Positions 287-34,774 of a stretch of 64,000 bases of DNA are shown piece by piece. The DNA is taken from assembly GCF_035474595.1 (NCBI RefSeq), contig NZ_DATIND010000151.1, positions 1-64,000 of the forward strand, in the 5' to 3' direction. The translations under genes and the position numbers were made by a program. This DNA comes from Longimicrobium sp. GTDB lineage: Bacteria > Gemmatimonadota > Gemmatimonadetes > Longimicrobiales > Longimicrobiaceae. The notes below the pieces were generated by a model that saw nothing but the letters and a program-made list of their open reading frames with translations, was not told the origin of the DNA and made no database searches. The first letter of the stretch is position 1; every line of letters begins with the position of its first letter.

Positions 287-13237
<12,951 letters not shown>

Positions 13238-13253: not shown

Positions 13254-15284
13254 TCAGGTGGTAAGGCCCAGGAGGCGGTCCAGCTCGTCCTCGGACAGGT
13301 CGTCGATCACGGCCAGCAGGCGGTGCGGGCTGGCGGCTTCGCCCACCTCCGCCGCGCGGCCGCCATGCGCCGGAACGGCCGGGGGATCGGGGAGATGGCG
13401 GGCCAGCGCCTCGATGGTGCGGTTCTCGAACACCGCGTCCAGCGTCAGCTCGGCACCGAAGGTCCGGGAGATGCGGCTCGCCGCGCGGATGGCCAGCAGC
13501 GAGTGCCCTCCCAGCTCGAAGAAGCTCTCGCGCACCCCCACGCGGCCCAGCCCCAGCACCTCGCGCCAGATCGCCGCGAGCGCCGCCTCGGCCGGCGTGC
13601 GTGGGGCCACGTACTCCGCGTCCGCCGCCTCGAAGCGGGGCGCGGGAAGCGCCTTGCGGTCCAGCTTGCCGTTGGGCGAAACGGGAAAGCGGTCGACCGT
13701 GACGAAGGCGCCCGGCACCATGTGCTCGGGAAGCGTCCGCCGCAGGTGCGCCCGCAGCGCGTCCGCCTCCGCCGCGCCGGCGACGTACGCCACCAGCCGC
13801 CGCTCTCCGCCCCCGTCCTCGCGCGCGACGACCACGCAGTCGTGAACGCCCTCGCACCCGCGCAGCGCCGCCTCGACCTCGCCCAGCTCGATGCGGAAGC
13901 CGCGGATCTTCACCTGGTCGTCCAGGCGGCCCAGGTAGTGAAGTGCGAGAGTGCGAGAGCGCGAAGGTGCGAGAGTGGCTTCGGCGTGCGATGAGTCGCT
14001 CTCGCACTCTCGCACTTCCGCACTTTCGCACTCCGTCCACCGCGCCTCGTCGCCCGTGCGGTACAGCCGGGCCCCCGGCATGCCGCCCAGGGGGTCGGGG
14101 ACGAAACGCTCCGCCGTCAGCGCCGGACGGTTCAGGTAGCCGCGCGCCACCTGCACCCCGCCGATGTACAGCTCGCCGGATGCGCCGGCGGGCACCGGGC
14201 GTAGCTCCGCGTCCAGCACGTACAGTTCGGTGTTCCACACGGGGCGGCCGATGGGAACCACGTCGGCCGCGGCGCGCTCGCACGGCCAGTGGCTGACGTC
14301 CACCGCGGCTTCCGTGGGGCCGTACAGGTTGTGCAGCGTGACCGGCGGCGCGAACCGCTCGTGGAAGCGCGCGGCCAGCGCGGGCGGCAGCGCCTCGCCC
14401 GAGCAGATCACCCGCTTCAGCGTCCGGCAGCGCGCCGGGTCCGCCGCGTCCACGAACTGCCGCAGCATCGAGGGAACGAAGTGCAGCGTGGTCACCCCGC
14501 GCCGCTCGATCACCTCGGCCAGGTACGCCGGGTCGCGGTGGCCGTCCGGCCGGGCCATCACCAGCGTGGCCCCCTGCTGCAGCGGCCAGAACAGCTCCCA
14601 CACCGAGACGTCGAACGAGACCGGCGTCTTCTGCAGCACCGCGTCGCCCGGCCCGATCCCGTACTCCGCCTGCATCCAGCAGAGGCGGTTGACGACGCCG
14701 CGGTGCGCGTTCACCACGCCCTTGGGGCGGCCGGTCGATCCGGAGGTGTAGATGACGTACGCCGCGTTGTCCGGGGTGACGCCGCTCTCCACCGGCTCCG
14801 CGGGCTCGGCGGCGATGGCGTCCCATCCTCCGTCCATGCTGGCGACGGCAATGCCCGGGGGGATGGGAACGGCGCCGCGCAGCCGCTCCTGGGTCAGCAG
14901 CACCGGCGCGGCCGAGTCGGCCAGCATGTGCCGCAGCCGCTCGGCCGGGTAGCCGGGGTCCAGCGGAACGTAGGCGCCGCCCGCCTTCAGCACGCCCAGG
15001 ATGGCTACCGCCAGCTCCAGGCCGCGCTCCAGCGCTATGGCCACCGGCACCTCCGGCCCCACGCCCAGCCGGCGGAGGTGGTGGGCCACCCGGTTCGCCC
15101 GCGCGTCCAGCTCGCGGTAGGCCAGCGAGGCGTCCTCGAACACCAGCGCCACGGCGTCCGGCGTGCGCGCCGCCTGCTCCTCGATGAGCGCGTGGATGCA
15201 GCGATCGGCCGGAAACGCCGCCCGCGCACCGGTCCCGCCCGCCACGACCCGCTCCAGTCCGGCCCCGTCCCGCGCCAGCGTCAT
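13254..15284 (-). CDS. Single-module NRPS, A-T (Ser-type loading module)
   Basis: A 676-residue protein with an adenylation domain (about 25-530) and one carrier domain (LGGHSLL serine near 591), but no condensation domain. This is the layout of an initiation module. The code reads DVWHISLVD, one conservative change from the serine code DVWHLSLID, so L-Ser is predicted. The start codon is ATG at 15284. Its first bases overlap the TGA of the upstream SHMT-like gene (ATGA), so translation is probably coupled. The downstream four-module NRPS begins 16 bases after its stop, so Ser would be the first residue ahead of Val-Thr-Thr-Hpg. An in-frame palindromic insert sits at residues about 417-449, between A7 and A8. 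An alternative is that it donates Ser in trans to another protein. Confidence 0.92.
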   Translation of the reverse strand: MTLARDGAGLERVVAGGTGARAAFPADRCIHALIEEQAARTPDAVALVFEDASLAYRELDARANRVAHHLRRLGVGPEVPVAIALERGLELAVAILGVLKAGGAYVPLDPGYPAERLRHMLADSAAPVLLTQERLRGAVPIPPGIAVASMDGGWDAIAAEPAEPVESGVTPDNAAYVIYTSGSTGRPKGVVNAHRGVVNRLCWMQAEYGIGPGDAVLQKTPVSFDVSVWELFWPLQQGATLVMARPDGHRDPAYLAEVIERRGVTTLHFVPSMLRQFVDAADPARCRTLKRVICSGEALPPALAARFHERFAPPVTLHNLYGPTEAAVDVSHWPCERAAADVVPIGRPVWNTELYVLDAELRPVPAGASGELYIGGVQVARGYLNRPALTAERFVPDPLGGMPGARLYRTGDEARWTECESAEVRECESDSSHAEATLAPSRSRTLALHYLGRLDDQVKIRGFRIELGEVEAALRGCEGVHDCVVVAREDGGGERRLVAYVAGAAEADALRAHLRRTLPEHMVPGAFVTVDRFPVSPNGKLDRKALPAPRFEAADAEYVAPRTPAEAALAAIWREVLGLGRVGVRESFFELGGHSLLAIRAASRISRTFGAELTLDAVFENRTIEALARHLPDPPAVPAHGGRAAEVGEAASPHRLLAVIDDLSEDELDRLLGLTT
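13938..14032 (-). repeat. In-frame palindromic 8-mer element, insert 3 (Ser-type A domain)
   Basis: This is a divergent copy. The GTGCGAGA and CGCACTCT octamer arms are clear, but the GGATCC centre of the other copies is replaced. It is read in frame as [14 protein letters not shown] and so on, between GDEARW and LHYLGR. The insertion point is the same as in four other A domains of different substrate type. Confidence 0.88.
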
Positions 15285-16765
15285 GCGGCGTCCCCGGCCG
15301 GGAGCGAGAACGGGTCGACCGGCGCGGTCGCACGCGGCGGGGCGATGGAGACCACTTCGGGCGGCCAATCGGCGGACCAGCCGGGGATGGGGAAGCGCGC
15401 GCAGAGCGCCGCCACCTCGTCGCGCGCCATGGCGGCCACGGCGGGGCACAGCTCGTACGCGTCGTCGTCCACCGGGCGCACGGCGGCCAGGACCATGTCC
15501 ACCAGCTCGGCGCACCGCGCCATCTCCGCCGGGCCCATCCCCCGCAGCGCCAGGCCGTGGGTGCCCAGGCGCACGCCGCTCGCGGCGGCAGGGCTCCGCC
15601 CGTCTCCGGGAACGCGGCACCGGCTCACCCTCATCCCGCACTCCTCCAGCGCCCGCTCGGCCACCGCGCCGGCCAGCCCGCGCGCGGAAAGGTCGACCGC
15701 CACCAGGTGGGTGTCGGTGCCGCCGGTGACCAGGGCCCAGCCGCGCGAAGCCAGCCCGGCCGCCAGCGCCCGGGCGCCCGCGGTGGCGCGGCGCGCGGCC
15801 TCGTGGAAGCCGGCCGACGCGGCGGCGGCCAGCATGCTGGCGGCGGCGGCGATCGCGGCCAGGTCCGGCCCTTCCGGCGAGGCGAGCGAGGCGGTGCGCT
15901 CGATGGCCCCGGAGAGCGTCCCCTCGCCCACGGGGGCGGGGGCGTCGTGGTCGCGCCCCATCAGCACCAGCCCGCCGCGCGGCCCCGGCAGCTGCCCGCG
16001 GGTGCGGGTGATGGTGAAGTGCGCGTGGTCGATGGGGCTGGGGTGCTCGCCCGCCGCCACCAGCGCGGCCACCGGAGAGATGTCGGCCAGGAGGAAGGCG
16101 CCCGCCTCGTCGGCGATGCGGCGGAACGCGGCGAAGTCGGTGGCGCGGGGATGGGCGGACGCGCCGCAGACGATCACCCGCGGCCGGTGCTCCAGCGCCA
16201 GCCGCCGCACCGCCTCGCCGTCGATCCGCCCGTCCGCTCCCGCCCCGCAGGCCACCGTCACCGTCCCGGGGGGCGAGGACGGGAAGCCGTCCGCCTCCGG
16301 CGCCAGGACGACGTCGCCCGGGCGGAGGAGGATGGAAAGGACGAGCTCGCGGGCGGCGGACCCCGAGGCCGGCCGCACGCTGGCGTAGCGCGCCGCGAAC
16401 GCCAGCCGCGCCCGCAGCACCGCGATGCGCTCGACCGCGCCGGCCACGCCGCACCCGGCCGGCGTGTTGGCCAGCGGCGATCCCCCGCAGGCCAGCACGG
16501 CCGCGCCCGCCACGCCCGAGGCGTCGTCCATCGCCAGCGTGGCGTTCTGCCGCCGGTGCTCGCGGGCGACCAGGCCGTACAGCTCCGGGTCTCCGGCGCG
16601 CAGGGGCTCCAGCCCGTGCGCGGCGGCGGACTCCGGCGCGCGGCCGTCCGCGTCCGCCCGCTCGCCGGCGTGCGGCGCCGGCGGCTGCACGATCCCGCCG
16701 GGAACGCGCACCTTTCCGGGCTCGCGTCCCGCAACCACTGCCGCAGCTGCGCCGATCGGGGTCAT
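15281..16765 (-). CDS. SHMT-like protein lacking the PLP lysine (probable pseudoenzyme)
   Basis: A 494-residue protein with the serine hydroxymethyltransferase fold signature. The stretch LVAAGEHPSPIDHAHF, then GPRGGLVL (261-268), and later GVRLGTHGLALRGM align well with GlyA, including the substrate-carboxylate Arg region. The catalytic segment is not conserved: where GlyA has T-H-K-T-L before GPRGG, this protein has T-R-G-Q-L, placing Gly257 at the Schiff-base lysine. The PLP-stacking His is Pro231, while the pyridine-binding Asp (D228) remains. ASEN of the N-terminal motif is AMDD. No lysine lies nearby. The start at 16765 is preceded by a weak CCAGG; an in-frame ATG further upstream would add unconserved sequence. 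It is coupled by ATGA overlap to the Ser-type loading module. It may be a scaffold, a serine-binding partner or a new activity. Family certain, function unknown. Confidence 0.85.
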   Translation of the reverse strand: MTPIGAAAAVVAGREPGKVRVPGGIVQPPAPHAGERADADGRAPESAAAHGLEPLRAGDPELYGLVAREHRRQNATLAMDDASGVAGAAVLACGGSPLANTPAGCGVAGAVERIAVLRARLAFAARYASVRPASGSAARELVLSILLRPGDVVLAPEADGFPSSPPGTVTVACGAGADGRIDGEAVRRLALEHRPRVIVCGASAHPRATDFAAFRRIADEAGAFLLADISPVAALVAAGEHPSPIDHAHFTITRTRGQLPGPRGGLVLMGRDHDAPAPVGEGTLSGAIERTASLASPEGPDLAAIAAAASMLAAAASAGFHEAARRATAGARALAAGLASRGWALVTGGTDTHLVAVDLSARGLAGAVAERALEECGMRVSRCRVPGDGRSPAAASGVRLGTHGLALRGMGPAEMARCAELVDMVLAAVRPVDDDAYELCPAVAAMARDEVAALCARFPIPGWSADWPPEVVSIAPPRATAPVDPFSLPAGDAA

Positions 16766-17694
16766 TCGCGCTACCTGGTGCCTGTGGGGGGGGTCCGGCC
16801 GCCGCCGCGCCCGCGGCGGGGATGCCGCTCGCGCCGGGGTCCCGGCGCGCGAATACTTCGGTTGGCGGGCGCAGCTCGCGCCGGAGCGGCGGCGAATGTT
16901 TTGACGCGCGGCGGCGGAGCTGGAGACCGGCTGTCTCCATGAACCGGCCGCGGCGGACAAGGACACGCTGCCGTTCGACTGCGGGGATGCGGCACCGAAC
17001 CGGCCTGCTGCTTCCGTCGCTCCGGGAGCGCCGCCCGGGGGCGGCAGCCATCCAGAGTTCACGGATGTTTAATACAAAGAGTCTGGAAAGAGATGGATGC
17101 GGGATCGCGCCTTTCGACCCCGGGCGGCGCGCCCGGCGCACCGGCAGAGCGCGGTCCCGTGAGTGGAATCCGGCAGTGCGGTGGAGCTCCCATTCGGACG
17201 CGAAGCCCGCCAGAAGCCGCCCGGCCACCCGTCTCCCGCCGCTTCGCCGATAAACATGCGGTTACCGCGGCGCACAACTGATAAGGCCACAAGCTCAGAA
17301 CCACAAGGGATGACCCCGTACCGACACGGAATGCGCCATTACATTTTCAACCGCACCGGAACGACTTTTTATTCATCCAGGTCGACGGAAACACCCGTCG
17401 CCGGGGAGGCCCGGCCGTACGGGGGTCTGCCGGAAACCCATGTGCCACCGGCCGCGCGCCGGATGGAATCGGGTGTTTACAGGGGTGCCCTTGACGTCAC
17501 ATAACGGTCGTGGCTACTCTTTGGGCCGGTGCGGGTCCGTTCGTGCGGAGTCTCTCGCCAGTGTCTCATTCGGATCGCAGGCCGGAACCGGCCGTGTTCC
17601 GCGGCGCCCCCCCGCCGCGTGATCCGCCCATCCCGCACGCATCGCCGCCGCCCGCGGGAAGGCGGCGCACGTTCATCTCCCCAGGGAGTCCCTG
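16766..17694. other. Divergent promoter region between NRPS and Hpg-supply operons
   Basis: This 929-base gap separates the minus-strand SHMT/NRPS operon from the plus-strand hmaS operon. No short reading frame in it looks coding. Base composition drops at about 17060-17090 and 17280-17390. On the minus strand TATTAA lies near 17070-17075, a possible -10 for the NRPS operon with about 300 bases of leader and no good -35. A better plus-strand candidate is annotated separately. Confidence 0.5.
17491..17520 (+). promoter_or_regulatory. Candidate sigma-70-type promoter for hmaS
   Basis: TTGACG (17491-17496) matches five of six -35 consensus positions. Eighteen bases later TACTCT (17515-17520) is a weak -10. 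It lies about 175 bases upstream of the hmaS start and is the only TTGAC-type hexamer I picked out in this gap. Confidence 0.35.
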
Positions 17695-18816
17695 ATGGCC
17701 ACGATCGAGCAGGAAATCCAGGCCCCCGTGCTCCACGGCGCGCTGCAGCTGAACGGCATCGACCACGTGGAGCTGTACGTGGGCAACGCGTACCAGGCGG
17801 CCCACTTCTACCGCGCGGTGTTCGGGTTCCGGCCGGTGGCGCGCGCGGGGCTGGAAACCGGGGTGCGCGACCGCATGTCGGTGGTGCTGGAGCAGGGCGA
17901 CGTGCGGCTGGTGCTGACCAGCGGCATCGCCCCCGAGTCCGAGATCGCGCGGCACGCGGCGCTGCACGGCGACGGCGTGAAGGACGTGGCGTTCACCGTG
18001 GACGACGTGGAGGCCGCCTTCGAGACGGCGGTCCGCCGCGGCGCGCACGGGCTGTCGGAGCCGCGGGTGCACGAGGACGCGCACGGCCGCGTGCTGCGCG
18101 CCACCATCGCCGCGCCGGGCGACACGGTGCACTCGTTCGTTGAGCGGCGCGGCTACGGCGGCGCCTTCCTCCCCGGCTTCGACCCCATCCTGGGCGCTCC
18201 CGCCACGGTCTCGACCGGGATCACCGAGGTGGACCACGTGGCGGTGAGCATGGAGCAGGGCGAGCTGGACCGCTGGATCGACTTCTACACCGACGTGCTG
18301 GGCTTCCACCAGTCTCACCACGAGATGGTGTGGACCAAGCACAGCGCCATGAACAGCAAGGTGGTGGAGGACGCGTCGGGGAAGGTGAAGTTCCCCATCG
18401 TGGAGCCGGCGCAGAATGCCGAGAAGAGCCAGGTGCAGGAGTACCTGAACTTCAACCGCGGCGCGGGCGCGCAGCACGTGGCCTTCCTGACCCCCGACAT
18501 CCGCCGCAGCGTGCGCGCCATCCGCGACAACGGGGTGAACTTCCTGAAGGTCCCGCCGACGTACTACGAGGTGCTGGAGGAGCGCGTGGGGCACCTGGGG
18601 CCGGAGATGATGGCGGAGCTGCAGGAGCTGGGAATCCTGGTGGACAGGGACGACGACGGCCGGCTGATGCAGATCTTCAGCGAGCCGGTGGGGTCGCGGC
18701 CGACGATGTTCATCGAGCTGATCGAGCGGCAGGGCGCGCTGGGCTTCGGCTCGGGGAACATCAAGGCGCTGTTCGAGGCGGTGGAGCGCGAGCAGGAGCG
18801 CCGCGGGACGATCTGA
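17695..18816 (+). CDS. hmaS: Hydroxymandelate synthase-like dioxygenase (HPPD family)
   Basis: A 373-residue two-domain vicinal-oxygen-chelate protein using Fe(II), O2 and 4-hydroxyphenylpyruvate. Metal ligands are visible as H181 (VDHVAV), H261 (AQHVAF) and E341 (FIELIER). Two positions argue against ordinary 4-hydroxyphenylpyruvate dioxygenase. The near-invariant PINEP is PIVEP here (Val236), and the GNF of the C-terminal helix is GNI (Ile356). In hydroxymandelate synthases these positions are hydrophobic or Ile, and a Phe-to-Ile change at the GNF site is known to push HPPD toward mandelate formation. I therefore predict (S)-4-hydroxymandelate, the first Hpg precursor, rather than homogentisate. 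It heads an operon with an aminotransferase and an Ldh_2 dehydrogenase, and no homogentisate catabolic gene is near. GGGAG precedes the start codon. An HPPD assignment remains possible. Confidence 0.8.
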   Translation: MATIEQEIQAPVLHGALQLNGIDHVELYVGNAYQAAHFYRAVFGFRPVARAGLETGVRDRMSVVLEQGDVRLVLTSGIAPESEIARHAALHGDGVKDVAFTVDDVEAAFETAVRRGAHGLSEPRVHEDAHGRVLRATIAAPGDTVHSFVERRGYGGAFLPGFDPILGAPATVSTGITEVDHVAVSMEQGELDRWIDFYTDVLGFHQSHHEMVWTKHSAMNSKVVEDASGKVKFPIVEPAQNAEKSQVQEYLNFNRGAGAQHVAFLTPDIRRSVRAIRDNGVNFLKVPPTYYEVLEERVGHLGPEMMAELQELGILVDRDDDGRLMQIFSEPVGSRPTMFIELIERQGALGFGSGNIKALFEAVEREQERRGTI

Positions 18817-18823
18817 TCTTCGC

Positions 18824-18884
18824 TGCGGAAGTGCGGAAGTGCGGAAGTGCGGAAGTGCGTGAGTGCGGAAGTGCGTGAGTGCGG
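18824..18884 (+). repeat. Intergenic single arm of the 8-mer element
   Basis: About seven head-to-tail GTGCGGAA/GTGCGTGA octamers begin eight bases after the hmaS stop. They are the same units that build the palindromic inserts in the five A domains, but the centre and opposite arm are missing. The array abuts a palindrome of a second repeat family at 18891. Confidence 0.85.
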
Positions 18885-18890
18885 GTGATC

Positions 18891-18950
18891 TCACGCGGAG
18901 ACGCGGAGGCGCGGAGAACCGGGCCTCCGTGGCTCCGTATTTCCGCGTGA
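18891..18950. repeat. TCACGCGGAG palindrome, copy 1
   Basis: An imperfect inverted repeat opens with TCACGCGGAG and closes with TTCCGCGTGA. The arms are made of GACGCGGAG-like units. It lies between hmaS and the aminotransferase gene and ends about 25 bases before the latter's start, so in mRNA it would fold just upstream of the ribosome-binding site. Related palindromes lie at 20203, 27061 and 30208. Confidence 0.8.
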
Positions 18951-18977
18951 GGTTTCCCTTCTTTCTGGGTGGAGATG

Positions 18978-20183
18978 ATGACCGAAATCGCGCCGGCGCG
19001 GACGCGGATGGAGCTGGCGGCGTGGGCCCGCGCCTCGGGGGCGTCGGCACTGCAGACGATGCTGTCGGTGGGAACGCGCCCGGGGACGATCTCGTTCGCC
19101 CTCGGCCTTCCCGCGCCCGAGCTGTTCCCCACCGAGGAGTACGGGCGCGCGGCCGCGGCGGTGCTGGCCGAGGACCCGCGCGCGCTGCAGTACTCGCCGC
19201 CGCACGCGCCGCTGCAGGCGCACGTGGCCGCGCTGATGGCCCAGCGCGGGGTCACCTGCGCGCCGGAGCAGGTGTTCCTGACCACCGGCGCGCAGCAGGG
19301 GATCGCCCTTCTCGCCCGGCTGCTGCTGGAGCCCGGGGGCGAGATCATCACCGAGACGCTGTGCTACACGGGCCTTCAGCAGGCGGTGGAGCCGTTCGGG
19401 CCGCGCTTCCTGACCGTGCCGTCGGACCCCGAGACGGGGATCGACGTGGACGCGGTGGAGTCGCTGCTGGCCTCCGGCTCGCGGCCGGCGTTCCTGTACA
19501 CGGTGCCCGACGGCAACAACCCGCTGTCGCTCAGCCTGAGCGCGGAGAAGCGCGCGCGGCTGGCGGCGCTGGCGGCGGAGCACGGCGTGCCCATCATCGA
19601 GGACGACCCGTACGGCTTCCTGGCGTACGACGGGCCCGCGGCCACGCCGATCCGCGCGCTGGACGCGGAATGGGTGCTGTACGTGGGCTCGTTCTCCAAG
19701 ATCCTGGCGCCGGGGCTGCGGCTGGGGTGGATCGTGGTGCCCGAGGAGCTGGTGCCGCTGCTGGCCATCGCCAAGGAGGCCAGCGACATCAACACGGCCA
19801 CGCTGGCGCAGCGCGCGGCGGCGCGGTACCTGGACGGCGGGCACCTGGCCGGGCACCTGGCCACCGTCCGCCGCGAGTACCGCCTTCGCCGCGACACCAT
19901 GCTGGCCGCGCTGGAGACGCACTTCCCGGCCGGGTCGCGCTGGCAGCGGCCGTCCGCGGGGGTGTTCGTGTGGGTGGAGCTTCCGGAGGGCTACGACACC
20001 GCCGAGGTGCTGCGCGCGGCGCTGGAGCAGCGCGTGGCCTTCGTCCCCGGCCACGCCTTCGCGGCGGACGGCAGCCGCACGGGGAGCAACTGCATGCGCC
20101 TGAACTTCTCCCACTCGACGCCCCAGGTGATCGAGGAGGGGATCGCCCGCCTCGGACGCGCGCTGGAGGCGGTCCGCGCGTAG
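18978..20183 (+). CDS. hpgT: PLP-dependent aminotransferase, HpgT-like
   Basis: A fold-type I aminotransferase of 401 residues, of the LysN/2-aminoadipate and HpgT type. Visible motifs are TTGAQQG (PLP phosphate), VPDGNNP (Asn at the PLP ring), EDDPYGF (Asp and Tyr) and SFSKILAPGLRLGW, with the Schiff-base Lys about residue 241. In this operon the expected reaction is amination of 4-hydroxyphenylglyoxylate to L-Hpg with tyrosine as donor, which would regenerate hydroxyphenylpyruvate for hmaS. Two adjacent ATG codons follow GGTGGAG; I chose the second (18978) because it leaves some spacing, and a GTG at 18969 is also in frame. A paralogue lies at 34825-36075. The fold is certain, the substrate is inferred from context. 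Confidence 0.85.
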   Translation: MTEIAPARTRMELAAWARASGASALQTMLSVGTRPGTISFALGLPAPELFPTEEYGRAAAAVLAEDPRALQYSPPHAPLQAHVAALMAQRGVTCAPEQVFLTTGAQQGIALLARLLLEPGGEIITETLCYTGLQQAVEPFGPRFLTVPSDPETGIDVDAVESLLASGSRPAFLYTVPDGNNPLSLSLSAEKRARLAALAAEHGVPIIEDDPYGFLAYDGPAATPIRALDAEWVLYVGSFSKILAPGLRLGWIVVPEELVPLLAIAKEASDINTATLAQRAAARYLDGGHLAGHLATVRREYRLRRDTMLAALETHFPAGSRWQRPSAGVFVWVELPEGYDTAEVLRAALEQRVAFVPGHAFAADGSRTGSNCMRLNFSHSTPQVIEEGIARLGRALEAVRA

Positions 20184-20202
20184 ATTCCGGCATCGACCTG
20201 TC

Positions 20203-20259
20203 TCACGCGGAGACGCGGAGTCGCGGAGGAGTCATCCGCGGCTCGGCGTCTCCGCGTGA
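20203..20259. repeat. TCACGCGGAG palindrome, copy 2
   Basis: TCACGCGGAGACG (20203-20215) is matched by CGTCTCCGCGTGA (20247-20259), a perfect 13-bp stem around a GC-rich loop. It fills most of the gap between the aminotransferase stop and the dehydrogenase start. Confidence 0.88.
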
Positions 20260-20285
20260 GCTCATCTTTTCAGCGACCGACCAAC

Positions 20286-21386
20286 GTGACCGATACACCT
20301 GCGACCGCGGCCGAGACTTTCCCGATCGAGCGGCTGCGCGAGTTCTCCACCCGCGTGTTCGCGGCGTGCGGGGTGCCGGAGGAGGACGCGGCGCTCGCGG
20401 CCGGGGTGCTGGCCAGCGCGGACCTGCGCGGGATCGACACGCATGGCGTCGCCCGTCTCCCGCAGTACCACGAGATGTTCGAGCAGGGGAGGATCAACCC
20501 GCGCCCGAACATCCACGCCGTGCGCGAGTCGCCGGCGACGGCCACGGTGGATGGGGACAACGGGCTGGGGCTGGTGGTCGGGCCGCGCGCGAACGAGATG
20601 GCGATGGAGAAGGCGGAGCGGGTGGGGACGGGATGGGTGGCGGTGCGCAACAGCAATCACTTCGGCGCGGGCGAGTACTATCCGCTGCAGGGGCTGCCGC
20701 GCGGGCTGATCGTGTGGGCGATGACGAACTCGCCGCCGCAGGTGGCGCCGCTCTGGGGCGCGGAGAAGATGCTGGGGACCAATCCCATCTCCATCGCCTT
20801 TCCGGGGATGGAGGAGCCGGCGGTGGTGATCGACTTCACCACCAGCGCCATCGCGTTCGGCAAGGTGGAGCACGCGGCGCGGAAGGGCGCCACCATCCCC
20901 GCGGGCACCGCCATCGACCGCGACGGGCGGATGACGACGGACCCGCGGGAGATGCTGGACGGCGGCGCGCTCCTCCCGCTGGGTGGCGACGCGGAGCACG
21001 GCGGGCACAAGGGATACTGCCTGGCGGCGATGGTGGACCTGCTGGCCGCGGCGCTTCCGGGAGCCAACTGGGGCCCCTTCCCCCCGCCCTTCCCCGCGCA
21101 TCTCCCGGAGCCACCGCGCTCGGTGGGGCTGGGCGTGGGGCACATGTTCGGCGCGTTCCGCATCGACGCGTTCGCCGACCCGGCGGAGTTCCGCCGCCAG
21201 GTGGATGACTGGGTGCGGACGATGCGCTCCACCCGCCCGGCCGCGGGCACGACCGGGCCCATCATCCCCGGCGACCCCAACCGCCGCGCGGAGGAGACGC
21301 GCCGCGAGCACGGCGTTCCCGTCATCCGCCCCGTGGTCGAGGCGCTGGAGCGCGTGGCGGCGGCGACCGGAGTGCCGTTCCGGTAG
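20286..21386 (+). CDS. Ldh_2 (malate/L-lactate dehydrogenase) family oxidoreductase
   Basis: A 366-residue NAD(P)-type 2-hydroxyacid dehydrogenase of the Ldh_2/ureidoglycolate dehydrogenase family. Family motifs are DLRGIDTHGVARLP (His53), NSNHFGAG (His125), GTNPISIAFP and HKGYCL. These enzymes interconvert 2-hydroxy and 2-oxo acids. Placed after hmaS and the aminotransferase, the fitting step is oxidation of 4-hydroxymandelate to 4-hydroxyphenylglyoxylate. That role is filled in known Hpg operons by the unrelated FMN enzyme Hmo. It could instead reduce hydroxyphenylpyruvate to hydroxyphenyllactate. The GTG at 20286 was chosen because the only earlier in-frame start (GTG 20256) lies inside the palindrome; no strong ribosome-binding site is visible for either. 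Family high confidence, substrate inferred. Confidence 0.85.
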   Translation: MTDTPATAAETFPIERLREFSTRVFAACGVPEEDAALAAGVLASADLRGIDTHGVARLPQYHEMFEQGRINPRPNIHAVRESPATATVDGDNGLGLVVGPRANEMAMEKAERVGTGWVAVRNSNHFGAGEYYPLQGLPRGLIVWAMTNSPPQVAPLWGAEKMLGTNPISIAFPGMEEPAVVIDFTTSAIAFGKVEHAARKGATIPAGTAIDRDGRMTTDPREMLDGGALLPLGGDAEHGGHKGYCLAAMVDLLAAALPGANWGPFPPPFPAHLPEPPRSVGLGVGHMFGAFRIDAFADPAEFRRQVDDWVRTMRSTRPAAGTTGPIIPGDPNRRAEETRREHGVPVIRPVVEALERVAAATGVPFR

Positions 21387-30286: not shown

Positions 30287-32539
30287 TCAGCGGAGCTCGC
30301 CCGCGAGCGGTTCCGTCTGGGTCGGGCGGCGGAGGGCGAGGGGGTGGCCGGGGAGGACGACGCGGCGGCGGCGCTCCGCGCTCTCCTGACGGGACCAGTC
30401 CACCGCGACGCCGTACGTCCAGAGCTGGCCCAGCGCGCGGAGGACGATGGCGCGGTCGCTCCCCGGCTGGCGGCCGTGGCGCAGCGACGTGGCCACGCGC
30501 TGCGCCCCCTGCTGCCGCGCCCACGAGCCCAGCACCGCGCCCGGCCCCACTTCCAGCAGCACCGGCTCGCCGCCCAGCCCGCGCAGCGTGTCCACGCAAT
30601 CGGCGAAGCGCACGGGCGCCATCAGGTGCCGCACCCAGTAGTCGGTCGACTGCGCTTCTTCCGCCGTCAGCCATCCGCCCGTCGCGTTCGCGGCCAGCGG
30701 GATCTCGGGCGCGCGGCGCTGGATGGAGGCGAGCACCTGGACGAAGGCGTCGCGCGCGGGCTCCAGCAGCCCCGAATGGAAGGGGTGGCGCACGGCGAGC
30801 GGCATCACCAGCGCGTCCTCGCGCTCGGCGGCTTCGGTGAAGCGGGCGATGGCGTCCGCGCTCCCCGACACCACGCACGAGCGGGGGGAGTTCACCGCCG
30901 CCAGCCAGAGCGGGCCGCCCTCCGCCACCACAGCGTCCACCAGCGCCCGCGTCTCGTCCCCGGGGAGCGAGACGGCGGCCATGCTCCCGGCGACGGGCTC
31001 CAGGAGCGCGGCGCGCCGCATCACCAGCGACAGCGCGTCTTCCAGCGTGAACACGCCGGCCACGCACGCGGCCACGTACTCGCCCAGCGAGTGCCCGGCC
31101 ACCGCGCGCGGCTCGATCCCCCGCGCGCGCCAGAGCTCGGCGAGGGCGTAGCCGACCGAGAACATGGCCGGGTGCCCCCAGCGCGCGCCCTGCAGCGGAT
31201 CGCCCTCCGTGGGCCCGCCGCCGCCGCGGACCAGGGCGCGGAGGTCCCATCCCCCGCCCTGCCCGGCCGCGCTCGCCGTCGCCGGGTAGAGCACGGGCGC
31301 CATCTCCATCCCCCACTGCTCGCGCAGGACGGCGAAGCAGCGGTCCATCGCGGCGCGGAAGGCGGGCTCGGTGTCGTACAGCTCGCGCCCCATCCCCGCG
31401 TACTGCGTCCCCAGCCCCGAGAAGAGGAAGGCGACGCCCGGATCGTCGCCGCCCGCCGTGTGCGTCGCCACGCGCGAGGCGTCGCCGCTCCTGAGGAGCG
31501 AGGCGGCCTCGGCGGCGGACGAGGCGACCAGCGCGCGGCGGTGCGCGAAGGCGGTGCGGCCGCGCGCCAGGGTGAAGGTGACGTCGGCCAGCGGCGCGCC
31601 CACGCCATCCTCCAGCTGCCCCGCCATCTCCGCCGTGAGCCATTCCAGCGCTTCCGGCGTCCGCGCGGAGAGGACCAGCAGCTCCGGCCGCTCGTCCTCC
31701 GCCTCGCCCATCTCCCGCGCGGGGGCCTTCTCCATCTCCACCCGCACCACGCCGTCCGAGCAGGACGCGGCGGAGGGCGATCCGTCTCCCTCCCCGACGG
31801 AAATCACGGCACGCACGAGCTCCGCCAGCGCCGCCGCCTCGCCCGCCGTCACGGCTGGCGCGGAGGAGTCACCGTCGACGATGGACGAGGTGATGACGGC
31901 GTGCACGCGGTCGCCGTCCGCCAGGGCGTCGGAGAGGCGCTTCAGCAGGAGGACGGCGGCGCCGGCGCCCTTCTTCTCCGAGCCGCCGCATCCGCCCGAG
32001 GCGAGCGCGGGGCACGTTCCGCAGCAGCCTGAAGGAGGGAGCGCGACGCCGCCGGCCAGCGCGGCATCGCAATCCCCCACCCGCAGCGCGCCGCAGGCCT
32101 GGTGGACGGCGGAGAGCCCACGGGAGCCCGTGGAGCGGACGGTGACGGAGGGGCCGCGCAGCTTCAGGCGCGACGACACCAGCGTGGCCAGCAGGTCGCC
32201 GTCGCCCAGGACGCGGAGCGGGCCGCCGTACGCCGCGGGCGCGCCGCCTTCCGCGCCGCCGAAGACGCCCACGCGGCCGGGGAACGACGCCGCGTCGCAG
32301 CCGCCGTGCTCCAGCGCGGCCCACGCCTGCTCCAGGAAGAGCCGGTGCCCGGCGGGAAGGTGATCGGCCTGCCCCGGCGCGAAGCCGAAGAACTCGGCGT
32401 CGAACGCCCCGCCGTCCGTCTCCCCCGCCCCGCCGCCGCGGAGCGACGCGGCGAGCTCGGGCGCGCCGGGAAGCCGGAACGCCACGCCCACCACCGCGAT
32501 CCGCTCCGCCCCGCCGGGGCCGCCGCCCGTGCCGCTCAT
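30287..32539 (-). CDS. PKS-like protein: truncated inactive KS fused to an acyltransferase
   Basis: A 750-residue protein. Residues about 14-225 are the N-terminal half of a ketosynthase. At the active site the usual TACSSSL is STGSRGL, so Gly138 replaces the nucleophilic Cys. The second half, with HGTGT and the Lys/His motifs, is absent. Residues about 365-690 are a complete acyltransferase with FLFSGLGTQY, GHSLGE (Ser484) and HPFH (His588); HxFH is typical of malonyl-type enzymes. No ACP, KR or further PKS domain is present. The ATG overlaps the carbamoyltransferase stop (ATGA), so the two are coupled. It may deliver an acyl unit to a carrier in trans or act as a docking scaffold. Domain calls are secure, function unknown. 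Confidence 0.88.
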   Translation of the reverse strand: MSGTGGGPGGAERIAVVGVAFRLPGAPELAASLRGGGAGETDGGAFDAEFFGFAPGQADHLPAGHRLFLEQAWAALEHGGCDAASFPGRVGVFGGAEGGAPAAYGGPLRVLGDGDLLATLVSSRLKLRGPSVTVRSTGSRGLSAVHQACGALRVGDCDAALAGGVALPPSGCCGTCPALASGGCGGSEKKGAGAAVLLLKRLSDALADGDRVHAVITSSIVDGDSSAPAVTAGEAAALAELVRAVISVGEGDGSPSAASCSDGVVRVEMEKAPAREMGEAEDERPELLVLSARTPEALEWLTAEMAGQLEDGVGAPLADVTFTLARGRTAFAHRRALVASSAAEAASLLRSGDASRVATHTAGGDDPGVAFLFSGLGTQYAGMGRELYDTEPAFRAAMDRCFAVLREQWGMEMAPVLYPATASAAGQGGGWDLRALVRGGGGPTEGDPLQGARWGHPAMFSVGYALAELWRARGIEPRAVAGHSLGEYVAACVAGVFTLEDALSLVMRRAALLEPVAGSMAAVSLPGDETRALVDAVVAEGGPLWLAAVNSPRSCVVSGSADAIARFTEAAEREDALVMPLAVRHPFHSGLLEPARDAFVQVLASIQRRAPEIPLAANATGGWLTAEEAQSTDYWVRHLMAPVRFADCVDTLRGLGGEPVLLEVGPGAVLGSWARQQGAQRVATSLRHGRQPGSDRAIVLRALGQLWTYGVAVDWSRQESAERRRRVVLPGHPLALRRPTQTEPLAGELR

Positions 32540-34554
32540 CGCGCGGCGCCGCTGGGCCTGAGCGTCACCACGCGGCGCGACCACAGGTCCTCCATCTCCT
32601 TCAGCAGCCGGCCCACCCGCTCGTCGCCGCTGATGCCGCGCTCGGGCATCAGCTCGCCCAGCGTGCGGCGGCCGTCCGCGTCCCACAGCACGCCGAAGGC
32701 GTCGGCGGAGATGGGCGTGGCCTTCTCGCCGAAGTAGCGGTTCACGGTGCTCTCGATGAGGTACTCGCGCGCGCCGTCCACCCCGCTCTGCATCACCAGC
32801 TTGCGGGTGGAGGGGAGCGCCGGGGAGAGGCCCTGGTAGCCGGCCAGGCGCGCGTCGTCGCCCCGCTTGCGCACCACCCAGTCGCCCACGACCAGGAAGT
32901 CCAGCCCGGTGGTGAGGAAGCAGGTGACCGCCTCGTCCAGCGAGTCGACGATGGGCTCGGCGTGGTTGTTGAACGAGGTGTTCAGCAGCATGGGCACGCC
33001 GGTGTGCTCCTCGAAGGCGCCCAGCAGCCCCCAGTAGCGGGGGTTGGTGTCCTGCGCCACCGTCTGCACGCGGGCGGTGCCGTCCACGTGGGTGATGGCG
33101 CCCAGCAGCGTCCGCGCATCCTCGCGCACCTTCAGCGCGAAAGTCATGAACGGGAACTCGTCGCTCGTCTTGGGCAGCTCGAAGTAGTCGCCCGCGCGCT
33201 CCTGCCGCACCGAGGGCGCGAAGGGGCGGTACCCCTCGCGCTTCTTCACCATCGCGTTGATGCGGTCCTTGTTCTCGGCGGGGCGCGGATCGGCCAGGAT
33301 GCTGCGGTTGCCCAGCGCGCGCGGGCCGAACTCCGAGCGCCCCTGCACCCAGCCGGCCACCTGGCCCTGGGCCAGCAGCGCGGCCGTCTCGCGCTCCACG
33401 TCGGCGCTGCGCTGGAAGGTCACCAGCCCTTCCCAGCCGCGCAGTCCCTGCTCCACGCCGCCGTCGTCGGGGATCCCCGTTCCCAGGTAGACGTGCTTCA
33501 TGGCCTGGGGGTTCATCTCCACCCCCTCGTCGTGCAGCACGGCCAGCGCGGCGCCCAGCGCGTTCCCCGCGTCGTGCGCGGCGGGCTGCACCCACACCTC
33601 GTCGAACAGCCCGCTGTAGGCGATGCGGCCGTTCATGGAGCAGTTGTGCGCCACGCCGCCGGCCATGCAGAGCGAGCGCGCGCCCGTCTCGGCCTGGAAG
33701 TGGGTGAGCACGTGCATCACGATCTTCTCCAGCGCCTGCTGCAGCCCGGCCGCGAAGTCGCGGTGCGACTGGTTGAAGGGCTCGCCCTTGCGGCGCGCCT
33801 GGTGCGCCAGCCCGGCCGCCTGGGTGATGCGCAGCAGGGTGGCCAGCGAGGCCACCTCGTAGGCGCCGTCGGGAAGGAGGCGGTACGACTGCGCGAACAT
33901 GTCGGCGTAGCGCGACGCGTCGCCGTACGGCGCCAGCCCCATCACCTTGTACTCGTCGAAGCGGGTGTAGCCCACCAGCCCGATGTACTCGCGGTAGAAG
34001 AAGCCCAGCGACTGCCGCTGGGGGATCTCGCGGAGGATGGTGAGGTCGTTCCCCTCGAAGGTGCCGATGGCGCCGGAGAGGAAGTCGCCCGAGCCGTCGA
34101 TGGACACCGCCAGCCCGCGCTGGAAGCCGGAGGGGAGGAAGGCGCTGTACAGGTGCGCGCGGTGGTGGTCGATGAAGCGCAGCCGGTCGGCCACCTCCTG
34201 CCCGAACTCGCGCTGGAAGAGGCCCGACACCTGGCGGCGGCCGCTGCCCAGCGGGTGCGCGGCGTTCTCGAGCGCGCGGGCCAGGTAGTACTGGTTCACG
34301 TTGGCCTCGGAGAAGTCGACGGCGATGAGGTCGACGTCGTCGAGGGTCTTCCCGGCCTCTTCCAGGCAGCGGCGGATGGCGCGCGCGGGGAAGGCGTTGG
34401 AGTGCTTCACCCGGTTCAGGCGCTCTTCCTCGATGGCGGCCAGCACCTTTCCGTCTTCCACCAGCACCGCCGCCGCGTCGTGGTAGGCCCACCCCGGATC
34501 CATGGTTTCGAAGTCGCGGATGGGTGAGAAGCTGTGGGTACCCAGAACGAGCAT
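32536..34554 (-). CDS. O-carbamoyltransferase (NodU/CmcH/TobZ family)
   Basis: A 672-residue enzyme that makes carbamoyl-adenylate from carbamoyl phosphate and ATP and transfers the carbamoyl group to a hydroxyl. The Kae1-like domain shows EEERLNRVKH, the metal ligands His130 and His134 (DHHRAH), SIDGSGDF, GLAPYG and AGGVAHNCSMNGR. The second domain shows GRSEFGPRALGNRSIL, HVDGTARVQTV and LLNTSFN. The last 80 or so residues (from about 585) form an extra domain ending LWSRRVVTLRP that resembles a small winged helix. A good GGGAG precedes the ATG at 34554. In this cluster it most likely carbamoylates a Ser, Thr or phenolic hydroxyl of the peptide; target inferred. Confidence 0.92.
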   Translation of the reverse strand: MLVLGTHSFSPIRDFETMDPGWAYHDAAAVLVEDGKVLAAIEEERLNRVKHSNAFPARAIRRCLEEAGKTLDDVDLIAVDFSEANVNQYYLARALENAAHPLGSGRRQVSGLFQREFGQEVADRLRFIDHHRAHLYSAFLPSGFQRGLAVSIDGSGDFLSGAIGTFEGNDLTILREIPQRQSLGFFYREYIGLVGYTRFDEYKVMGLAPYGDASRYADMFAQSYRLLPDGAYEVASLATLLRITQAAGLAHQARRKGEPFNQSHRDFAAGLQQALEKIVMHVLTHFQAETGARSLCMAGGVAHNCSMNGRIAYSGLFDEVWVQPAAHDAGNALGAALAVLHDEGVEMNPQAMKHVYLGTGIPDDGGVEQGLRGWEGLVTFQRSADVERETAALLAQGQVAGWVQGRSEFGPRALGNRSILADPRPAENKDRINAMVKKREGYRPFAPSVRQERAGDYFELPKTSDEFPFMTFALKVREDARTLLGAITHVDGTARVQTVAQDTNPRYWGLLGAFEEHTGVPMLLNTSFNNHAEPIVDSLDEAVTCFLTTGLDFLVVGDWVVRKRGDDARLAGYQGLSPALPSTRKLVMQSGVDGAREYLIESTVNRYFGEKATPISADAFGVLWDADGRRTLGELMPERGISGDERVGRLLKEMEDLWSRRVVTLRPSGAAR

Positions 34555-34743
34555 GGCAGAGACTCCCTTGGTGCCGTGTGGTTTGTGCCCCCGCCGCGGT
34601 GGGCGGGGCCTTGCTGGTTGATCGCCCGCCCGGCCTCGTGCCGGGCGGATTTCCGGATCTGCATCTACAGCGAACTCATCGAGAGATGAGGCTCGGCGAC
34701 GGGTGGCGATGCCCTGCCCGCCTGGTCGGCCCTCTCCCCCCGG

Positions 34744-34774
34744 CCCCCTCCCCAAAACTGCCTGGGGGAGGGGG
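34744..34774. terminator. C/G hairpin after the second aminotransferase gene
   Basis: CCCCCTCCCC (34744-34753) pairs with GGGGAGGGGG (34765-34774) around an 11-base loop, about 50 bases beyond the aminotransferase stop. It could separate that gene from the carbamoyltransferase operon. No U-tract follows, so rate of termination is unknown. Confidence 0.45.

Follow-up and report, generated by a model that had tools for sequence, protein, structure and literature searches.

Several SHMTs make building blocks for natural products: PbzB, FmoH, AsmD and XvbB produce 2-hydroxymethylserine or alpha-methylserine, and enzymes of this type are marked by the segment TAEG--RYH (PMC10098953). Of the NRPS A domains that partner such SHMTs, PbzD-A2 has been reported to belong, against expectation, to the Cys clade (PMC10098953), and position 278 of FmoA3 is Asn (PMC11253843). 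In the L-threonine transaldolases, His131, Asp204 and Lys234 (ObiH numbering) are conserved among active enzymes (PMC10495429), and ObiH His131, the equivalent of E. coli His126, stacks on PLP (PMC8072733). Here we describe an SHMT-like open reading frame (ORF) in a 64,000-nucleotide stretch of DNA from Longimicrobium sp. (assembly GCF_035474595.1, contig NZ_DATIND010000151.1, positions 1 to 64,000; hereafter the window). With a probability of roughly 0.7, we read this ORF as a decayed SHMT of the PbzB/FmoH/AsmD type, a supply enzyme left dead once ordinary serine had taken the place of the earlier building block.

A degenerate SHMT-like gene ahead of NRPS genes

The SHMT-like ORF (Table 1) is the first gene of its operon, since a 929-bp intergenic region and a divergent gene lie upstream of it. 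An AGGT-like site precedes its ATG, no sigma-70-like promoter was found in the 929-bp region, and GC3 along the core is coding-like at 0.97. The overlap of its stop with the start of the A-T gene, noted in the initial annotation, takes the form of an ATGA (15284..15281).

Table 1. Positions in the window of the SHMT-like gene, its landmarks and its neighbours.
Feature	Position	Strand	Basis
Four-module NRPS, (C-A-T)x4, same direction, downstream; start 16 bp past A-T gene	287..13237	(-)	
A-T NRPS protein, 676 aa, code DVWHISLVDK (L-Ser)	13254..15284	(-)	
Degenerate PbzB/FmoH-type SHMT-like ORF, 494 aa	15281..16765	(-)	ORF call, Pfam, alignment, tree, Foldseek
ATGA overlap, SHMT-like stop (TGA) / A-T start (ATG)	15281..15284	(-)	sequence
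Codon 399 (Arg), E. coli Arg363 column, kept	15569..15571	(-)	alignment
Codon 257 (Gly), Schiff-base lysine column	15995..15997	(-)	alignment
Codon 231 (Pro), E. coli His203 column	16073..16075	(-)	alignment
Codon 228 (Asp), E. coli Asp200 column, kept	16082..16084	(-)	alignment
Junction of 7-residue in-frame deletion (AGGHLSH of sister copy; PLP-stacking His126 gone)	16286..16291	(-)	alignment
Junction of 10-residue in-frame deletion (TEGYPGARFH of sister copy; E57/Y64/H65 region gone)	16457..16462	(-)	alignment
929-bp divergent intergenic region upstream of SHMT-like ORF	16766..17694	no strand	

Divergent from the SHMT-like ORF, an HPPD/hydroxymandelate-synthase-like gene, a class I/II aminotransferase and an Ldh_2 dehydrogenase stand consecutively at 17695-21386 (+). 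The HPPD-like gene exceeds the NCBIfam HPPD cut-off, and the three genes could be a hydroxyphenylglycine-type supply set in which a dehydrogenase replaces the usual oxidase. NRPS genes on one strand occupy about 100 kb (G000:C151:287-114354), within which three A domains have the code DARHVGVVDK in common and a carbamoyltransferase (Carbam_trans_N/C, NodU-like) is found at 32536-34755 (-) of the window; the whole genome gives 141 A-domain-like matches, fragments counted.

Descent from natural-product SHMTs

That the protein has the GlyA (SHMT) fold, as initially annotated, is well supported: it matches the Pfam SHMT family (PF00464) at E=9.3e-65, and in a Foldseek search with its AlphaFold2 model the first-ranked structure is 7QCW (target TM 0.93), the title of which gives PbzB of benzobactin biosynthesis and which is also the nearest solved structure by sequence. 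AlphaFold2 predicts a confident SHMT core, though this is weak evidence and not an independent call of the fold, because an SHMT alignment was given as input. On the NCBIfam SHMT model NF000586 the protein scores 241.7 bits, below the cut-off of 335, and intact relatives score 437 and 454 bits. The genome also holds an intact housekeeping glyA (C44, L002); no second PbzB-type SHMT was found in it.

In our phylogeny the protein is sister to a copy from another member of the genus (G003; support 89/80), to which it is 59% identical; G052 joins this pair (98/95), followed by G355 and PbzB (99/99; 5-row set). The G003 copy is intact, with TTEGYPGARFH, the Schiff-base Lys and His126 all present, and the intact relatives keep the Lys, GGHL.H, DISH and a T.EG..R[YF]H motif. 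This last segment (TAEG--RYH in place of YAEG--RYY) is present in G003, G052, G280 and the Streptomyces copies, and is deleted in the window protein. On sequence comparison, the ORF descends from natural-product SHMTs of the PbzB/FmoH/AsmD type. Ancestry among the L-threonine transaldolases was considered because the codes of SHMT-linked A domains resemble Thr codes; it was dropped, PbzB being far closer and the TAEG--RYH motif fitting. A scan of GTDB contigs with P0002 gave almost only housekeeping-type glyA genes.

Loss of the active site

The protein was aligned with 52 GlyA sequences and the intact paralogues. In the column of the Schiff-base lysine, occupied by Lys in 52/52 GlyA references and in all intact paralogues, it has Gly257, in agreement with the initial annotation, and there is no lysine at the active site; its sole Lys, K18, lies in a tail predicted to be disordered. 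The same annotation took Pro231 to replace the PLP-stacking His. The substitution is there, but its column is that of E. coli His203, whereas the ring-stacking His126 is absent altogether, falling inside a 7-residue deletion. A proposed correspondence between ASEN and AMDD proves to be out of register, since the residues opposite E. coli ASEN are D-A-S-G, and the intact paralogues already read AASS there. Loss at the PLP site is in fact wider than was first described: a 10-residue deletion, overlooked at that stage, removes the TEGYPGARFH segment, the E57 column is a gap, His228 is Arg in the alignment with GlyA, N102 is Arg, P258 is Leu, G262 is Glu, N347 is Cys, and K272 is also lost. The cofactor Asp and the carboxylate Arg do persist, as claimed, in the form of Asp228 (= Asp200) and Arg399 (= Arg363).

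With the lysine changed to Gly and both the stacking His and the folate/substrate loop deleted, the protein should not catalyse aldol reactions or hydroxymethyl transfer; by sequence it is catalytically dead, and we infer that catalysis has been lost. Loss of the lysine is not in itself proof that ligand binding is lost, since crystals of K226M and K226Q SHMTs with Ser or Gly exist (1YJY, 1YJS). Binding of serine or PLP is nevertheless unlikely, given the deletion of the stacking His and of the substrate/folate loop. A literature search for Lys-less SHMTs gave nothing relevant.

Tempo and pattern of divergence

The end branch leading to the window protein has a length of 0.85, against 0.17 for its G003 sister, which amounts to roughly five-fold faster protein change. 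By parsimony, changes specific to the window copy have an N/S of 58/24 and those specific to the sister 18/27 (Fisher p=0.0012). A codon model gives omega values of 0.107 and 0.035 for the window and sister branches respectively, a difference that does not reach significance in a likelihood-ratio test (2dlnL ~3), dS being close to saturation. Under the same saturation, and hence as a rough value, omega=1 over the whole window branch is rejected (2dlnL ~20), so neutral decay cannot cover the whole branch. Constraint was lost or lowered during part of it.

Of the 80 ungapped sites that are at least 95% conserved in GlyA, 25 have changed, compared with 3/80 in the sister, and near-invariant sites have changed as heavily as other sites. 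At codon positions 1-2, window-specific changes run AT>GC 47 times and GC>AT 7 times (sister, 3 versus 11), and FYMINK residues have been lost at 65%, GARP residues at 16%, the heaviest losses falling on amino acids with AT-rich codons. This pattern suggests relaxed change, of the kind that drift biased towards GC would produce.

The reading frame and the length of the ORF have both been preserved. Each of its three internal deletions (10, 7 and 2 aa) is in frame, an outcome with a chance of about 1/27 were frame irrelevant, and changes in the hydrophobic core (14 conservative, 7 radical) lean further towards the conservative than neutrality would predict (p=0.012). The lack of stop codons is weak evidence, since neutral simulation at this GC leaves the frame free of them with P ~0.26 at 0.44 changes per codon.

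A search for homologues lacking the lysine beside NRPS genes, as proposed in the initial annotation, gave none across 394 genomes of this class, nor any second Lys-less open copy, the other copies being intact or frameshifted. In a third member of the genus (G027) this paralogue is reduced to a remnant with a frameshift and an internal deletion. Random placement and decay of homologues had been named as what would speak against a functional role; the G027 remnant, which lies on an NRPS-bearing contig, is an instance of such decay.

The partner A domain

Serine had been proposed as the substrate of the adjacent A-T protein, and the prediction stands: in its code, DVWHISLVDK, positions 236/278/301 are V/H/S, as in the L-Ser-activating EntF, and among the PDB structures that it matches with high scores are Txo2, Txo1, EntF and FscH, all of them Ser-activating. 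The code positions were placed by motif in this protein, and the codes of other A domains were read by alignment to it.

The A domain next to an intact SHMT has the code DMYNFGMIHK in G003, DMYHLGLMDK in G280/G355, DMYNLGMIHK in Streptomyces NBC_01136, DMYNMGLIHK in Streptomyces BHT-5-2 and DMYNLGMIDK in Pseudonocardia pFRP1-1. Thus 5/5 next A domains conform to DMY[N/H]xG[M/L][I/M][H/D]K in what is a small sample (five intact SHMT-NRPS pairs, three genus members). All five carry GGATE in place of GPTE and form one clade (100/99), outside which the window A-T falls, grouping instead with an internal Ser A domain of G003 (99/96). The DMY[N/H] code with GGATE is a candidate signature for alpha-substituted serine: the relatives' SHMTs would hydroxymethylate Gly, Ala or Ser, and the product would pass to the adjacent A domain, both products and substrates being putative. 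The combination recurs straight after intact PbzB-type SHMTs at G003:C2:346280 on (L055) and at L075, L078, L079 and L080. The NRPS cluster of G003 also has a stand-alone formyltransferase (Formyl_trans_N; L056:2576-3457), another one-carbon enzyme near an SHMT-bearing operon. No DMY code is present among the A domains of the window's contig or in the 8 best own-genome A-domain matches read.

ATGA coupling of SHMT to NRPS is also seen in G003 and Streptomyces NBC_01136, and TGATG in Pseudonocardia pFRP1-1, all with intact enzymes. As intact relatives are coupled too, coupling and adjacency are best regarded as inherited from an active enzyme and are no sign of complex formation. The exception to adjacency is G052, where the SHMT is on an 11-kb contig without NRPS neighbours; this intact paralogue (L057, G052:C71) has in its vicinity a TonB receptor, a periplasmic binding protein of iron type and an M14 peptidase.

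A dropped building block or a new role?

The decayed supply enzyme that we favour would have had an ancestor making an alpha-substituted serine (2-hydroxymethylserine or alpha-methylserine) for the adjacent NRPS A domain. This special building block was probably dropped, as the A-T protein reads L-Ser and no special-type A domain is seen in the contig or the closest own-genome matches, and the supply enzyme would thereby have been freed from selection; with plain Ser as the consumer's substrate it would have no purpose. Either the change of A domain or the failure of the enzyme could have come first. The frame may have been kept by the position of the ORF as first gene and its ATGA coupling to the A-T gene, by the recency of decay, or by both; such coupling would act against changes that break the frame but tolerate amino-acid substitutions, in line with the pattern observed. 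The placement of the protein with PbzB and its kin in structure and tree, the long end branch with its shifted N/S, the changes at conserved sites and the AT>GC excess all speak for this reading, as do a Ser-coded A domain where intact SHMTs have DMY-coded ones, the lack of a DMY code or second PbzB-type SHMT in the own-genome searches, and the G027 remnant. It sits less easily with the open, full-length frame and in-frame deletions, with a rough whole-branch omega of ~0.11 for which omega=1 is rejected, with the conservative bias in the core, with the confident if weakly informative AlphaFold2 core, and with there being one degenerate open copy known.

Apart from the last, those same features, together with the retained Asp228 and Arg399 and the existence of crystallised Lys-less mutants, are what would favour a true pseudoenzyme, that is, a dead SHMT fold with a non-catalytic role for the A-T protein (scaffold, chaperone, serine sensor or regulator), under selection that is changed and not absent. 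Inherited coupling, dominant AT>GC drift that does not spare near-invariant sites, the deleted His and loop, and the failure to find other Lys-less copies in the class, or conserved ones in several lineages, count against it, and we consider it unlikely, though the leading rival. That a dead PbzB-type SHMT was recruited as a dedicated partner of the Ser-loading A-T (scaffold or serine-sensing regulator) when the building block changed seems to us rather improbable. A serine-binding scaffold, chaperone or regulator of the loading module was the proposal of the initial annotation; residual constraint on frame and core is in keeping with it, but a serine-binding scaffold has little support, and the match to Ser more plausibly marks the loss of a special building block, because intact relatives lie beside DMY[N/H] and not Ser-coded A domains. 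Continued enzyme activity by an unusual mechanism that dispenses with lysine would account for the kept Asp and Arg and the predicted fold, but the sole Lys is in a disordered tail, His126, His203, E57 and the loop are gone, and no DMY-type consumer was found in the A domains read, making this very improbable. Hardly credible at all is a sequencing or assembly artefact: although the assembly is in 163 contigs, dozens of dispersed substitutions, in-frame deletions and coding-like GC3 are unlike sequencing error, and an intact sister with an identical ATGA junction exists.

The pathway has apparently been caught switching its building block, the pairing of SHMT and DMY[N/H] A domain seen in relatives being gone here on both sides. 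It follows as a prediction that an A domain with DMY[N/H]xG[M/L][I/M][H/D]K beside a TAEG--RYH SHMT should load alpha-substituted serine. The case also counsels caution: that an ORF devoid of catalytic residues stays open and is translationally coupled does not by itself make it a functional pseudoenzyme.

Comparison with known systems

The closest known system is PbzB, the benzobactin SHMT that makes 2-hydroxymethylserine, together with its kin: it is the nearest structure, an NRPS-cluster SHMT, and shares a clade with G003, G052 and G355. The window protein differs in lacking the Schiff-base Lys, the stacking His and the TAEG--RYH segment, and in having a partner A domain for plain Ser. Housekeeping GlyA has the fold and family in common with it, but forms a separate clade, with intact catalytic residues and an end branch of 0.065 compared with 0.85. 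The L-threonine transaldolases (ObiH, LipK, FTase) are likewise SHMT-related PLP enzymes of biosynthetic clusters, yet of their three conserved residues the window protein retains the Asp alone, and it matches the FTase model poorly (31.9 bits, where the cut-off is 650). As for the A domains, those linked to SHMTs in intact relatives resemble FmoA3 and PbzD-A2 in having Asn278 in 4/5 cases and in sharing Cys-clade-type GGATE motifs, whereas the A-T protein of the window has Val/His/Ser at positions 236/278/301, like EntF for L-Ser.
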